DNA of 63,799 bases from Ereboglobus sp. PH5-10 (GTDB taxonomy: Bacteria > Verrucomicrobiota > Verrucomicrobiia > Opitutales > Opitutaceae). The notes beneath the pieces are model-generated. The model saw only the letters and a list, made by a program, of their open reading frames with translations. It did no database searches and was not told the DNA's origin. Positions 49,331 through 55,459 of the stretch are shown here, piece by piece (the stretch's first letter is position 1; each line of letters begins with the position of its first letter). The stretch spans positions 1 to 63,799 of the forward strand of contig NZ_JAQFIP010000015.1 of the NCBI RefSeq assembly GCF_029504735.1. Reading direction: 5' to 3'. The position numbers and the translations under genes are program-made.

Positions 49331-49798
49331 CTACCCCAGCAGCTGCGTCTGCCGCAGCGCCTCGTAGCACGCAATGCCCGCCGCCGTGCTCAAGTTGAGC
49401 GAGCGCAACGCGGGGTTCGCGTGGGGAATCGTCACTCGCGCCTCCTCGCCGAGCTCCGAGTGCAGCCATTCGGGCGCGCCTCCACCCTCGTTTCCAAAAA
49501 CCAGCCCGTCGCCGTCCGCAAATCCCGCGTCCCAAAACGAGCGTTTCGTTTTTGTGGTGAACAACCACAAGCGCCCGCCGGGTGCTGCGGGACTCGCACG
49601 AAAGGCGGGCCAGTCGTTGTGATGATGCACGTCGAGCGAATACCAATAATCCATGCCCGCGCGCCGCAGTTGCGCATCGGTGATCTTGAAACCGAGCGGA
49701 TGGATCAGGTGCAGTCTCGACTTCGTAAGCGCGCACATGCGCCCGATGTTGCCCGTGTTCTGGGGGATTTCCGGCTGGAAGAGGACAATATGCAGCAT
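49331..49798 (-). CDS. trmL: tRNA (cytidine(34)-2'-O)-methyltransferase
   Basis: TrmL is a SPOUT-class enzyme that 2'-O-methylates the wobble nucleotide of certain tRNA-Leu species. The 155-residue product begins LHIVLFQPEIPQNTGNIGRM, followed by LIHPLGF, LVFGNEGGGAP and IPHANPALRSLNLSTAAGI, the knotted SAM-binding region. The length matches the single-domain family. The start ATG 49798 matches the family; an upstream ATG at 49816 would add six residues. Confidence 0.9.
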   Translation of the reverse strand: MLHIVLFQPEIPQNTGNIGRMCALTKSRLHLIHPLGFKITDAQLRRAGMDYWYSLDVHHHNDWPAFRASPAAPGGRLWLFTTKTKRSFWDAGFADGDGLVFGNEGGGAPEWLHSELGEEARVTIPHANPALRSLNLSTAAGIACYEALRQTQLLG

Positions 49799-49845
49799 GA
49801 CAGCCACGGAACCCATCAGTCGGCGGCACGTTGTGCAAAAAAAAT

Positions 49846-49867
49846 CGCCCGGTGGTGAGACCGGGCG
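49846..49867 (-). terminator. Strong minus-strand intrinsic terminator
   Basis: CGCCCGGT and ACCGGGCG form an 8-bp stem with a 6-base loop; on the minus strand it is followed by A and eight Ts (49837-49844 on the plus strand are A). There is no protein gene ending just before it on the minus strand, so it most likely terminates a transcript coming from the gene-free region 49870-50160. Confidence 0.75.
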
Positions 49868-50150
49868 AATAAACCCTAAGGAGCTAGGCTCTACTTAAGA
49901 TTTTTGGCGGGAGGGACACTCAAGATGTGGCAACACCCACCCGATGCAAGAAATTTTACCCTTTTTTGAAAAACTTGATGTGCCAAGTGTCCGTAAGTTG
50001 TTGGCGTATTGGGCAACAGGCTCGCTGCTTGCGAGTTACAGGATGCAAGCCCCGTCGAACCGTGAGCTTCCCACTGAGATGATGCCGCGCCCAAGCCGCC
50101 CTCGTCCCAATGTGCAGCGGAAAGGAATGCGTGCGCGGGCACTTGCATTG
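49868..50150 (-). ncRNA. Candidate structured RNA, 6S-like architecture (identity uncertain)
   Basis: No convincing protein gene occupies 49799-50311. On the minus strand, TGCAAGTGCCCG near 50150-50139 pairs with CGGACACTTGGCA near 49992-49980 over about 11 bp, closing a domain of about 170 bases. Inside it, ATTGGG pairs with CCCAAT, leaving a large asymmetric internal loop (about 24 and 14 bases), and GCTTGC/GCAAGC forms an apical hairpin. A closing stem, central bubble and apical arm are the 6S RNA plan. A TAAAAT -10-like box with TTGTGT 18 bases upstream (about 50200-50170) and the terminator at 49846-49867 favour minus-strand transcription. 6S identity is inference; another RNA class is possible. 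Confidence 0.4.
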
Positions 50151-50189
50151 TCATAATACTTTTGTTTGCATTTTAGCCATTATTTACAA

Positions 50190-50235
50190 AAGAACACAAC
50201 TTAGTGGAAACCAATATATTATAAAATGCGATCTT
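50190..50235 (+). promoter_or_regulatory. Possible AT-rich promoter region for the polysaccharide operon
   Basis: AATATATTATAAAAT near 50213-50227 resembles a -10 element about 85 bases before the FkbM gene; no good -35 hexamer lies at the right distance. The segment to the start codon contains a short GGGCGTT...AACGCCC pairing (about 50237-50270) that could form a leader hairpin. The same stretch may also hold the divergent minus-strand promoter. Confidence 0.25.
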
Positions 50236-50311
50236 GCGGGCGTTCATATCCGGGGCCAAGGGTTGCCAAACAAACGCCCCCGCAATCTCTCTTTCATCTT
50301 AATTTTTACCC

Positions 50312-51748
50312 ATGTCATTCATTTCCTATGCTCAGAATCTTGAGGACGTAATTCTTCATCGCGCGCTAAAAGACGTCAAAAACGGGTTCTATGTGGATGT
50401 CGGAGCCAACGATCCCGTCATCGATTCGGTTACCAAGGCCTTTTACGACCTCGGCTGGACGGGAGTGAACATCGAGCCGAATCAGGATTATTACCGCAAA
50501 CTCGTCAACGAACGCCCCCGCGACATCACGCTGAGCTGCGCCGCCGGCAAAACCGTCGGGGAAATCGAGTTTAACAACATCCCGAACACCGGCCTCTCGA
50601 CCGCGGTGTCGCAAATTGCCGAAAAGCACGGGCAAAGCGGCTGGTCTGTCACCAAAACCACCGTCCCCGTCTATCCACTCAAAGACATTCTCGCCCCCTA
50701 TGCGAATCGCGACATTCATTTTCTAAAAATCGATGTCGAGGGCATGGAGACGGAAATAATAGAGGGCATGGATTTTCAAAAATACCGCCCTTGGATACTG
50801 GTTATTGAGGCGATTGCACCCGGCACGCAGGATCCCGCCCATGGGCAATGGGAACACTATATAGTCGATGCAAACTACGCATATGTATATTTCGACGGCG
50901 TAAACCGGTATTATCTTGCAACAGAACAATCAGCCCTGAAAAAACATCTCATATATCCCCCGGGCATATTCGATGACTTCGCAGTTTATACAAAACTACA
51001 AGCTGAGCAAGCAACGCAGCGGGAGCTTGATGAAAAACAAAATGAGCTTGACCAATGTCAACGTGAGTTTGCCGAAACGCAGCGCGCAGCGGAGGCTGCG
51101 ATGAAACAAATGCAAAAGGAAATTCAAATGCTCGCGGAAAAATTTGAAGAATTGCGCATCCAGTCGAAACACCATGCGGAGGAACTAGAAGGGCAAATCA
51201 GCGAAAAAGATAAAAGCATTGGCATATTAAAAAGCACAAATGCAAAATTACAAAAAGATAATGCCGATCTGCAAAGACACGCCACATCAACAAGTGAACA
51301 AATGCAGGCCGTGATCAATGCGCGGCAGTCGGAAATCGAGCGCTTGCGAAAACTTCTGTATTCCTCGACAACCGGGACGCACCTCTACCGGGCGATGCGT
51401 GTCCTCATAGGAGACCGCCATTATAAACAATCTCCGGCCAAAAACGCCCGGCCTAAAAAACATTACGCAAACATCCGCGTTCCCTGGCACACGCACCTCT
51501 ATCGCGCGGGTCTCGGCATTTTTGTAAAGGGAGAAAAACCCTGGCACACGCATTTGTATCGGGCATTCGCGTCCCTGTGTGGCGCAAAAAAATATTCTCC
51601 TCACCCGCTCCCATGCATCCCTTCAATGCCAGCCGCGCAACAATCGCAGCGATCAATTCTGGATGCAGCATCTGCCGTGACGGAGCCGCTAACTGAAGAG
51701 AGAATTTTACAATATTTCAGGAAGAAACGTTCCGAATCGGGTATTTGA
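50312..51748 (+). CDS. FkbM-family methyltransferase with coiled coil and HTHLYRA repeats
   Basis: The product is 478 residues. Residues 1-235 are an FkbM-type SAM methyltransferase (NGFYVDVGANDPVIDS; NIEPNQDYYRKL; FLKIDVEGMETEIIEGM), a class that O-methylates sugars or small molecules. Residues about 236-350 form a continuous coiled coil (ELDEKQNELDQCQREFAETQ). The C terminus has three copies of a short repeat: GTHLYRAMR, WHTHLYRAGL and WHTHLYRAFA (about residues 355, 392 and 410). The layout recalls WbdD-type chain terminators in which a coiled coil sets polysaccharide length, but no kinase domain is present. Nine bases separate it from the large glycosyltransferase gene. Confidence 0.82.
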   Translation: MSFISYAQNLEDVILHRALKDVKNGFYVDVGANDPVIDSVTKAFYDLGWTGVNIEPNQDYYRKLVNERPRDITLSCAAGKTVGEIEFNNIPNTGLSTAVSQIAEKHGQSGWSVTKTTVPVYPLKDILAPYANRDIHFLKIDVEGMETEIIEGMDFQKYRPWILVIEAIAPGTQDPAHGQWEHYIVDANYAYVYFDGVNRYYLATEQSALKKHLIYPPGIFDDFAVYTKLQAEQATQRELDEKQNELDQCQREFAETQRAAEAAMKQMQKEIQMLAEKFEELRIQSKHHAEELEGQISEKDKSIGILKSTNAKLQKDNADLQRHATSTSEQMQAVINARQSEIERLRKLLYSSTTGTHLYRAMRVLIGDRHYKQSPAKNARPKKHYANIRVPWHTHLYRAGLGIFVKGEKPWHTHLYRAFASLCGAKKYSPHPLPCIPSMPAAQQSQRSILDAASAVTEPLTEERILQYFRKKRSESGI

Positions 51749-51757
51749 CAAAAATTC

Positions 51758-54700
51758 ATGAGAACACTTTTTAATATATTTCCGTGCCAAACCAACAACG
51801 GACGGAACCGGGGCTTGGGTAATTACTCAATGGCCTTGGCGCAAACCTATGCAAAACTCCACTCGGATGACCGCGTCCATTTGCTAGGCGCATGCAATTA
51901 TCCCGAAAGCGTGCCGGATATAAAGACCGCAGTTTCCGGTGACATTCCCGAACACCGCCTGAAACTCATCGATCTGCCGGAAATGAGCGGATTCTCAACC
52001 CCAGTTGAATCTGCTGATGCCAGACTGCAAGCCGCCTCAATTAACTGGGCCTGTGCGCGCATCAATCCCGAGGTCGTGCATACTTCCAGCTTCTTTGAAC
52101 CGGAAGTCTGTCTCCCCTCCCCCGCCAACATGGCGCCATGGCTGCACTCTGTTACCGTCTATGACCTGATTCCCCTGAAATTTGAAAACATTTATTTGAG
52201 GGACGCACGAGCCAAGCGCTGGTATCTGAACAGAATAGAAACACTGAAGCATCACGATATCTTTCTCGCTATATCGGAAAGCACTCGAAGAGATACCATC
52301 GAACTGCTGGCCCTCGACCCCGACCGGGTGTTTAACATATCGGCAGCCTGTCACCCACGGTTCAAAACAGGCGTCAAAAAGGAAACAGAAAAAGAGCTGA
52401 TTGCTAAAAAATATAAAATAAACCGCCCCTATTTCATGTATACAGGCGGTTCGGATTGGCGAAAAAATATCGAGGGTGCCATAAAATCGTTTTCGCTTGT
52501 CCCCGGAGAATTGAGACGCGGGTTTTGCTTTGCAATAGTATGCGCCTTGCCTTCCGCCGAGTTGGACAAGCTCCGCCGGCAAGCTGCCCAGCTCGGGTTG
52601 AATCCGGATGATATTGTGTTCACGGGCTATGTGCCTGATGATGATCTGCCGTTGCTCTACAGATACTGCCATGCTTTTGTGTTTCCGTCCCTTTATGAAG
52701 GGTTCGGTCTCCCAGTCCTCGAAGCCATGTCGTGCGGAGCCCCAACCATAGCCGCAAACAATTCCAGTCTGCCCGAAATCATCAACCGCCGGGATGCTCT
52801 TTTTGATGCCAACACGCCGGAGCCCCTGGCGGACCTGCTTGTCACCTTGATGCGTGATGAGAATTATAGACAGTCCCTTATCAAAACCGGACTCAAGCAA
52901 GCGGAAAGTTTTAGCTGGGAGAATACCGCAAAAAAAGCTCGCATAATATGGGAGGCCGCCCTCGCAATCAAAAATACAAACAAGCGCACCGCATTATTCC
53001 ATAGGCACCCGCTGAAAAGACTCGCTTTTGTTTCACCCATTCCCCCGCAGCGCACGGGCATTGCTGTGTTTTCCGCGGAGCTGCTCAATGTTCTCAGTGC
53101 CTTTTATCAAATTGATGTTTTCACGGACAAATCATTCGAACCCGACGAGCGGTTGTCCGCACTATTTGAGATACATTCGTATGCTGAATTGGACAAAATG
53201 GCTAAAGATTATGATGCCATACTCTATCATGTGGGCAACAGCGCTTATCACATTGAAATATTAAGCCTTTTGCAAAAACATCCCGGAATCGCGGTTCTTC
53301 ACGATTTTTATATTTCCGGACTGCTTGACTACATGGAGCATAATAAAATTTATCCTGAATGTTTGACGCGCGAGCTGCTCAGGCACGGCGGCCATAAGGC
53401 AATGACCATGTATAAAAACTCCGAGACGGCACTTCAGGCGATTACCGAATGCCCGGCCAACAGCCTCGTATTCGAAAGTGCCCTGGGTGTGATTGTGCAT
53501 TCGGGTTACGCGCAAGCACTTATTGATCGACACTATCCTGAAGGGGTTGCCGCGCCACACGCTGTCATCCCGTTGTTAAAGAGAGTGTCTCTTGTCGCTG
53601 AGAATGAGAACACCGAAACTGAGAGAGCGAATGATTTCACCATTTGCAGCTTCGGGCACATAACCGCGACCAAGAGCCCCATGTTGTTAATCGAGGCCTT
53701 CGAAAAATTAGCCGCATGCATGCCAGGCAAAAAGATAATGTTATGTTTTGTTGGAGAATTGTTGGATGACGCACATGGTGCGCAATTGAGAAAACGGTTG
53801 GCCAACAGTAAATTTAAGAATCGTATTAAGATAACTGGCTATGCAAACGATGCCGATTATGCGCACTGGATGCATTCGGCTAATGTTGCAGTGCAGTTGC
53901 GTTCCTCCTCAAGGGGTGAAACCTCGGGCGCGTTGCTCGATTGCATGGCCAATTCCGTGCCGGTCGTTGCCAATAATTTTGCATCATTCAGTGGCTACCC
54001 GCCTGACGCCATTTGTTTTGTCGAAGGCGAACTGACATCTGATGCCGTGGCCGAAACGCTGAAAAAACTAATTGAGAATCCAGGGGCGGCAAAAGCATTT
54101 GCCAATGCCGCGAGGAAATGGATTGCGCACAACCACGCCCCTGAGCAAGTCGCCCAACTCTATTATAGAGCGATTGAGTCGTTCACTGCAAATTCCAAAT
54201 CAAATAGTCACATAAAGTTATTAAATTCCATACGGCCTAGTGCTGCAGACTTGGAAAAAGGCGAGCGCTGGATCACGCAACTTTGTGAAACGGAGGTCAC
54301 CCTGAGACCCCCCCGGTTCTATTATGACATTACTCTTTTTTCCAAACAATGGAACGAGGGTTATATGACCGGTATCCAAAGGGTGGTGCATTCCATTTTT
54401 GTGGAGCTCGGCAACCGCCAGATCGACATTTGGCCGGTGGCGTTGAACTCGGCAGGCACCGATTATTATGCTCTTTATAAAAACAGTGATACAAACAAAT
54501 GGGAGTCAACTCAACAAACCGTTCATCTCCAGCACGGTGACACGCTCCTCATCGCGGAACTTAGGCATGACCTGCTCTCAACATCACCGATATGGGAAAA
54601 ACTCAGGAAAGCCCAAATCGATATCCATGCTATTCTTTATGATCTTCTGCCGGTATTGCATCCCGAGTTCTATCCGCCGGAGGGAAAAGAATTGCATCAA

Positions 54701-55459
54701 AAGTATCTTAAATTCCTCTCACAAACCGCAAATCGGGTGAGCGCGATATCGCGCACCGTGGCAACAGATTACTCGCGCTGGGTTGCCGAGGAGGGGCAAA
54801 CTATAACACCCCTGAAATTTCAAAAGGTTGATGTGATACCCCTAGGCGCAGCCCCAAAGCCACCAGCCCAAACCGGTTATAAGACTCCGCCCTGGCCGAG
54901 CGGCGGTCCGGTGTTCCTTATGGTTGGCACACTTGAACCACGAAAGAATCACGCTCTTGCGTTGGACGCATTTGACGCGCTCTGGAGCCAAAACATAAAT
55001 GCACGACTATGCATTGTTGGTCGCAGGGGTTGGCTTGCCGATAAGATTTATGAAAGAATTAAAGATCATCCGAAAATTAATACGGACTTACTATTTTTTG
55101 ATAGTGCGGACGATGAGACGCTATTAAGGTGTTATCAAAATGCGGCTTGCCTGATTGCCGCATCCATAAACGAGGGGTATGGGCTGCCCCTTGTCGAGGC
55201 GGCTCATTATGGGCTACCTATAATAGCATCCGATATCGAGGTTTTCAGGGAAAGCATTGTTGACGCTGACGTTTTTTTTGATCCCACTTCACCGCAATCC
55301 TTGGCAAGCGCAATTATGGAAGCGTTAACCCTTCCGCATGAGGCCCGAACCCTTAAAAAACGGTCGCTTCCCACATGGAAAGACACGCTGGATAAGTTAT
55401 TGAAAGACACGCTTGCGATGTCGGCCAAGGAACACGCGAAAGGATTTTATGACAAATAA
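51758..55459 (+). CDS. Three-domain GT-B glycosyltransferase
   Basis: The product is 1233 residues and contains three glycosyltransferase units. Unit 1 (about 1-405) has TVYDLIPLKF, YTGGSDWRKNIEGAIKSF and EGFGLPVLEA (near 313). Unit 2 (about 417-800) opens RLAFVSPIPPQRTGIAVFSA and has FGHITATKSPMLLIEAFE and GETSGALLDCMA, where the second Glu of the E...E motif is replaced by Asp. Unit 3 (about 853-1230) has YYDITLFSKQW, TGIQRVVHSIF, VGTLEPRKNHALALDAFD and EGYGLPLVEA (near 1138). It is probably a polymerase or multi-linkage enzyme of a surface glycan. Its end overlaps the next gene by 11 bases. Base composition is AT-richer than the flanks. Confidence 0.88.
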   Translation: MRTLFNIFPCQTNNGRNRGLGNYSMALAQTYAKLHSDDRVHLLGACNYPESVPDIKTAVSGDIPEHRLKLIDLPEMSGFSTPVESADARLQAASINWACARINPEVVHTSSFFEPEVCLPSPANMAPWLHSVTVYDLIPLKFENIYLRDARAKRWYLNRIETLKHHDIFLAISESTRRDTIELLALDPDRVFNISAACHPRFKTGVKKETEKELIAKKYKINRPYFMYTGGSDWRKNIEGAIKSFSLVPGELRRGFCFAIVCALPSAELDKLRRQAAQLGLNPDDIVFTGYVPDDDLPLLYRYCHAFVFPSLYEGFGLPVLEAMSCGAPTIAANNSSLPEIINRRDALFDANTPEPLADLLVTLMRDENYRQSLIKTGLKQAESFSWENTAKKARIIWEAALAIKNTNKRTALFHRHPLKRLAFVSPIPPQRTGIAVFSAELLNVLSAFYQIDVFTDKSFEPDERLSALFEIHSYAELDKMAKDYDAILYHVGNSAYHIEILSLLQKHPGIAVLHDFYISGLLDYMEHNKIYPECLTRELLRHGGHKAMTMYKNSETALQAITECPANSLVFESALGVIVHSGYAQALIDRHYPEGVAAPHAVIPLLKRVSLVAENENTETERANDFTICSFGHITATKSPMLLIEAFEKLAACMPGKKIMLCFVGELLDDAHGAQLRKRLANSKFKNRIKITGYANDADYAHWMHSANVAVQLRSSSRGETSGALLDCMANSVPVVANNFASFSGYPPDAICFVEGELTSDAVAETLKKLIENPGAAKAFANAARKWIAHNHAPEQVAQLYYRAIESFTANSKSNSHIKLLNSIRPSAADLEKGERWITQLCETEVTLRPPRFYYDITLFSKQWNEGYMTGIQRVVHSIFVELGNRQIDIWPVALNSAGTDYYALYKNSDTNKWESTQQTVHLQHGDTLLIAELRHDLLSTSPIWEKLRKAQIDIHAILYDLLPVLHPEFYPPEGKELHQKYLKFLSQTANRVSAISRTVATDYSRWVAEEGQTITPLKFQKVDVIPLGAAPKPPAQTGYKTPPWPSGGPVFLMVGTLEPRKNHALALDAFDALWSQNINARLCIVGRRGWLADKIYERIKDHPKINTDLLFFDSADDETLLRCYQNAACLIAASINEGYGLPLVEAAHYGLPIIASDIEVFRESIVDADVFFDPTSPQSLASAIMEALTLPHEARTLKKRSLPTWKDTLDKLLKDTLAMSAKEHAKGFYDK

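Follow-up and report, generated by a model that had tools for sequence, protein, structure and literature searches.

Several described bacterial small RNAs (sRNAs) act through C-rich segments, and among these the CcsR1-4 RNAs of Rhodobacter reportedly bear a motif of the CCUCC type. RoxS of Bacillus subtilis pairs through its C-rich regions with G-rich sites on mRNAs, some of which are Shine-Dalgarno sequences (PMC5419742), PmaR of Agrobacterium needs an accessible C-rich segment for target regulation (PMC6234868), and CcsR1-4 are homologous copies of one sRNA (PMC8307010). By mechanism, the three would be the nearest counterparts of the RNA gene described here, which nevertheless differs from each of them. 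RoxS has four C-rich regions and belongs to the Firmicutes (PMC5419742), and nothing passed in Rfam, through which its sequence relation was judged; PmaR presents the C-rich segment as a loop on a long stem (PMC6234868), whereas the Opitutaceae sRNA has it as a 5' tail; and the CcsR RNAs are processed from the ccaF1 3' UTR and interact with Hfq (PMC8307010), whereas the Opitutaceae sRNA appears to have its own promoter, with no Hfq detected. Within Rfam, there is a weak local resemblance, namely a CCUCC-type 5' part combined with a G+C-rich terminator, to anti-hemB, the Betaproteobacteria toxic sRNA and suhB/mmgR, far under the respective cut-offs (20.6 of 49.5, 21.7 of 50 and 16.7 of 41 bits). 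For the entire Planctomycetes-Verrucomicrobia-Chlamydiae group, a table in a 2022 survey counts 8 distinct annotated sRNAs, versus 345 for Proteobacteria (PMC9029176). Searches of the open-licence literature on small, structured or noncoding RNAs of Verrucomicrobia, Opitutaceae and Opitutus, and on rpoC-rpsL, turned up no description of this sRNA. We take the family to be new; it is absent from Rfam 15, whereas C-rich pairing sRNAs as a kind are already known.

The window, that is, the whole analysed stretch of 63,799 nucleotides from Ereboglobus sp. PH5-10, carries on its minus strand a small RNA gene, predicted to span about 80 nt (49837-49917), which comparison with relatives delimits and which ends at a terminator flagged in the initial annotation. 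In order, its parts are a C-rich 5' tail predicted to be single-stranded (GUCCCUCCCGCCAA, 49904-49917), a hairpin with a covarying outer stem (49871-49903) and a constant GAGC-CUA-GCUC cap (49881-49891), and a conserved intrinsic terminator (49837-49868). The terminator proved to be exactly as first described, with a stem of 9 pairs at 49868-49845 followed by eight Ts at 49844-49837. As a bare motif it does not exceed chance (1 found versus 2.5 expected from shuffles of 1.4 kb), and its significance comes from its conservation in relatives; all 9 pairs are kept in a second genome of the same genus (G001). The region was rightly called gene-free: the 87-aa minus-strand open reading frame spanning it has no Pfam match, and we rejected an encoded protein on that ground. 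Downstream on the minus strand lies a gene for a SpoU methyltransferase (49331-49798; PF00588, 1.4e-26; start set at MLHIVLF), which we take to be trmL. It starts 38 nt past the T run (49799-49836), both here and in G001, and this short gap means that it may depend on terminator read-through. The divergent neighbor on the plus strand codes for an FkbM-type methyltransferase (50312-51748; PF05050, 2e-29), beyond which a 1233-aa protein (51758-55459) shows three Glycos_transf_1 stretches. We posit, with a probability of roughly 60%, that the RNA gene is an independently transcribed, intrinsically terminated, trans-acting sRNA of Opitutaceae, the tail of which would pair with mRNAs. Comparison shows the promoter words, the 5' edge, the tail, the hairpin and the terminator; we infer transcription, action in trans and pairing via the tail. 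Transcription would start near 49917 and stop at the T run.

To compare the unit across genomes, we used 49840-50310 as a blastn query against 57 genomes, the source genome included. Matches were found in 19 of them, full-length only in the source genome and G001, and most of the others covered just the sRNA end of the query (at most 127 bases). Of 25 matching places, 21 contain the sRNA unit and were aligned; the other four were dropped for lack of it, L022 and L025 being one repeated stretch in which the hairpin is missing, and L020 and L023 being short matches to other parts of the query. Throughout the alignment CCUCCCGCC and an A-run are constant, the hairpin stem is variable, and a G+C-rich terminator with Ts follows. 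The cap is constant as GAGC-YUA-GCUC (loop UUU in one sequence), its stem being invariant in 21/21. Likewise, CCTCCCGCC of the tail is invariant in all 21 sequences, and conservation has a sharp 5' edge at UCCCUCCC. Searching the genome collection with an exact pattern supplied 55 loci, and a copy entered the sets used below for promoter, neighborhood and the fold of 67 units only if its tail word and its cap word each had no more than one substitution. Since these words were selection criteria, tail and cap invariance in the pattern-selected sets is in part a product of the selection; the unbiased measure is that from the 21 blastn-found sequences, while stem, terminator and promoter are free of selection in the pattern sets.

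The structure is supported by covariation: among its 21 pairs, 11 vary at both partners. In the 21 sequences, 96.6% of cells are paired, compared with 80.5% after shuffling; covariation scores 0.448 versus 0.134 (reached by none of 500 shuffles), and a slid control, with partners moved by 1-3 columns, gave 34-43% paired. Both kinds of control overstate the case, given the relatedness of the sequences and the derivation of the structure from this very set. RNAalifold returned the same fold, which also holds over 67 distinct units, where as many as six standard pair types are found at a single position of the outer stem; the four inner pairs are invariant and thus provide no evidence for or against pairing there. 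The window's ~80-nt unit folds at -29.6 kcal/mol with z = -5.2 (0/200 shuffles as good), comparable to three homologues (z -5.2 to -5.7). Values for the longer 313-nt stretch are z = -2.3 on the minus strand (2/100 shuffles as good) and z = -1.3 on the plus strand (11/100). Against the covariance model the window's copy scores 91.1 bits, a value to be read knowing that it was itself in the training set. Over the 67 units, the mean predicted probability of being unpaired is 0.92-1.00 for the first 13 nt of the tail. Two traits of trans-acting, intrinsically terminated sRNAs are therefore present: a conserved structure ending in a terminator and, by prediction, an accessible segment for pairing. 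The RNA probably pairs through this C-rich tail.

Upstream of the unit, the candidate promoter comprises a -35 box TTGCAT (49944-49949, minus strand; conserved word CTTG at 49950-49947), a 16-nt spacer and a -10 box CATCTT (49922-49927), with an A/T-rich tract ahead of the -35 box (49951-49960) evident from column counts in 69 copies. CTTG precedes the sRNA in 67 of these 69 distinct copies (letter shuffles: mean 3.4, maximum 9). In the -10 box the last-position T occurs in 63/69 and the second-position A in 45/69, and a purine is found at one of two expected start positions in 58/69. A canonical TAnnnT is present at this register in 0/69 copies, and the promoter went unmarked in a generic sigma-70 scan; its assignment thus rests on the conservation of the words rather than on the scan. 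The conserved words and the conserved unit bear out the earlier proposal of a minus-strand non-coding RNA preceded by promoter-like boxes, and point to a promoter belonging to the sRNA itself. For contrast, CTTG-N17-20-TAnnnT was recovered in 38/44 rpsL upstream regions (shuffled 2.9), at a distance of 64-86 nt from the start codon. A CTTG -35 word is therefore common to the sRNA and rpsL promoters of the clade, but the -10 box of the sRNA is without the first T, so that its promoter may be weaker or subject to regulation. The conserved clade promoter in these 38 rpsL regions has the form A-tract-CTTGC-N-TAGnnT (e.g. L126 and L117). Downstream of the sRNA terminator, rpsL is thus served by a conserved promoter of its own, and on this ground the sRNA can be regarded as a separate unit.

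The covariance model gives a strong match (>=61.8 bits, hand count) in 57 of 120 genomes of the family and none in the other 63; the sRNA is hence not universal. Below this value the next best match is 43.5 bits (G012), followed by scores of <=35.5. An alternative tally at E<=0.001 yields 77/120 genomes, and our counts use only matches of >=61.8 bits. The source genome has one strong copy and a second match of 27.1 bits, whereas G036 has four strong copies. In a sample of 177 genomes from the order, nine pass E<=1e-6, eight of them in the family; the ninth (G223, 40 bits) was rejected as a false match, which we read as a lysine/alanine-rich gene end plus a terminator. In a sample of 387 genomes from the phylum, 19 pass, all in the family. 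Across these two samples, the draws of which overlap (searches of more than 40 genomes used stricter filters), credible matches occur only within that family. The 55 stretches from the exact-pattern search are titled as Opitutaceae, Opitutae/Opitutia or Verrucomicrobia(ota), or by genus, for instance Ereboglobus, Opitutus, Lacunisphaera and Cephaloticoccus, and it is on these record titles that the family name 'Opitutaceae' rests. Contigs of Opitutaceae bacterium EW11 hold four such stretches, one by rpoC-rpsL and three elsewhere; the latter (L080, L098, L114) each lie beside different genes. Annotated phage and plasmid records gave no homologues at the settings used. Two IMG/VR viral contigs carry a copy (L119:9842-9873; L120:295-328), and on L119 genes for an integrase and an HTH protein lie close to it.

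A preferred genomic home is apparent in 53 of 68 distinct copies: within the flank that was fetched, these follow rpoC, precede rpsL, rpsG or fusA, or do both, with other genes intervening between the sRNA and these neighbors in L084, L091, L108 and L112. Four copies, all from the window's genus, are found just before trmL, and 11 are without rpoC, rpsL-rpsG-fusA or trmL neighbors, some of these having short flanks. We considered a mobile-element insertion site and dropped it; the genes intervening between rpoC and the sRNA, or between the sRNA and rpsL, at the few such loci appear unremarkable when translated. In the window's genus rpoC and rpsG are themselves apart (on different contigs in the source genome and ~204 kb from each other in G001), and in G006 and G068 rpoC is far from the sRNA. 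Copies away from rpoC/rpsL, including that of the window, retain promoter, hairpin and terminator.

These neighborhoods bear on two alternatives. First, the element might be a cis-acting leader or attenuator, whose terminator sets read-through into the downstream gene, trmL here and rpsL elsewhere. The 38-nt gap in the window and G001 leaves little room for another promoter of trmL, and the placement of all four copies of the genus just before that gene also fits such a role. We nonetheless regard it as unlikely, given that in 38/44 rpsL regions a separate promoter lies 64-86 nt ahead of the start codon, that certain copies are away from both genes, with the copy in L098 followed by a gene on the opposite strand, and that inspection revealed no alternative pairing which would undo the terminator. 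Second, as most copies come just after rpoC, the RNA might be a processed piece of the rpoC 3' UTR, or no more than the rpoBC terminator. This is quite unlikely, as the unit follows conserved -35/-10 words even in genomes with a distant rpoC (the window's genus, G006 and G068), and a bare terminator would not need a conserved tail outside it.

If the trans-acting sRNA reading is right, the tail would pair with G-rich stretches (e.g. GGGAG) of a limited set of mRNAs and thereby alter their translation or decay, and the constant cap might be a protein-binding site or a second site of contact. The Hfq domain (PF17209) was detected in 0/38 genomes, the source genome included, as against 5/14 control genomes. 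Hfq dependence is thus not indicated for this genome, and, with no Hfq detected in the clade, pairing would take place without it or via another chaperone. The target tests that we ran gave no support for mRNA targets. A search on both strands of eight genomes for GGCGGGAGG-N1-11-ATG returned 189 sites, versus 122 for the permuted word CGGGGGAGG; the backward controls were 85 and 35, respectively, so that the target word is not specially enriched, the permuted word being the more enriched of the two (189/85 vs 122/35). Twenty sites were fetched, namely 13 of 14 in the source genome, where the 14th is the opposite strand of the sRNA itself, and 7 of 15 in G001; just 1/13 (L162) and 1/7 (L173, 331 aa), respectively, open a reading frame of more than 121 aa. 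A tail-complementary 6-mer occurs at the starts of rpsL in 0/35, rpsG in 2/34, fusA in 0/24 and rpoC in 0/9 cases. The word GGGA is present in the rpoC start regions of G008, G036, G006 and G022, but also in those of G063, G071, G004 and G059, all without a strong sRNA match; it is absent from those of G000, G001 and G002, and in the window's genus it is missing (in this survey 3 of 15 fetched rpoC loci were without a usable start).

The tail resembles an anti-Shine-Dalgarno word. Shine-Dalgarno-like words precede the first ATG in 4/39 long open reading frames of the window, the starts of which are guesses, and rpsL starts in 0/35 cases (L064-L118); hence a role of this kind would concern a minority of mRNAs. 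CCUCC is present at the 3' end of 16S rRNA, and this shared word, together with the cap stem being constant in 21/21 sequences, allows a third alternative, in which the RNA binds a protein through its cap or acts as a decoy mimicking the C-rich 16S end, rather than pairing with mRNAs. Against it stands a tail that goes beyond CCUCC (CCUCCCGCC), and we hold this alternative to be distinctly unlikely.

The initial annotation had instead proposed a 6S-like fold upstream (49966-50150, minus strand) and a transcript of 170-310 bases, where we predict about 80 nt. The bubble and arms of that fold are mostly not conserved: identity to G001 is 0.96 over 49837-49965 versus 0.61 over 49966-50120, and the compensatory changes sought in relatives appear in the last ~80 nt. 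The 11-bp closing stem of the fold was not found as such, the nearest arms being of 18 nt at 72% complementarity (50043-50060/50131-50148) and of 10 nt at 90% (49984-49993/50136-50145). The words of its inner stem, ATTGGG/CCCAAT (50008-50013/50106-50111), and of its apical hairpin, GCTTGC/GCAAGC (50027-50032/50045-50050), do exist, but the upstream stems are mostly not kept in G001. Seven such stems retain 9/14, 3/10, 8/9, 3/6, 4/6, 3/6 and 3/6 pairs, with 7 pairs in all kept through change on both sides, a count that two sequences with overlapping arms cannot settle; we rejected these inverted repeats as RNA structure. The suggested covariance-model search for 6S, tmRNA and other families found no Rfam family at cut-off anywhere in the window. 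A lax search of 49700-50400 (to E 10) gave only low scores, with 6S RNA (RF00013) not among the matches, and ARAGORN identified no tRNA or tmRNA in the window. Rfam matched one of 20 homologous loci, through a tRNA in L036, and none at the sRNA. The genome's 6S gene is a single match on another contig (G000:C11:45094-45276, 59.2 bits), and the stretch is not 6S RNA. With sub-threshold matches only (best 21.7 bits of 50), 6S, tmRNA or any other known Rfam family is exceedingly improbable, whatever resemblance the upstream inverted repeats had offered. Farther upstream, the non-coding block 50121-50200 has an identity of 0.82 to G001, versus 0.61 in the stretch beside it, and contains an inverted repeat, CTTTTGT/ACAAAAG (50159-50165/50186-50192). 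The block is perhaps the control region of the divergent FkbM-type gene.

Going further, one could imagine an sRNA present throughout the family, with its usual place between the operons for RNA polymerase and for ribosomal proteins, which governs those few mRNAs whose starts are G-rich and Shine-Dalgarno-like, and into which some temperate phages tap by carrying their own copy. We consider this a long shot; if true, it would be a form of control in bacteria that are mostly without Shine-Dalgarno sites and without detectable Hfq. Should the sRNA prove to be only a minor regulator, it would still be a useful annotation. As it stands, the Planctomycetes-Verrucomicrobia-Chlamydiae group gains a well-supported candidate sRNA family with a fixed promoter, a structure, a usual genomic home and a covariance model, which provides a concrete way into RNA regulation where Hfq is undetectable and Shine-Dalgarno sites are apparently scarce.
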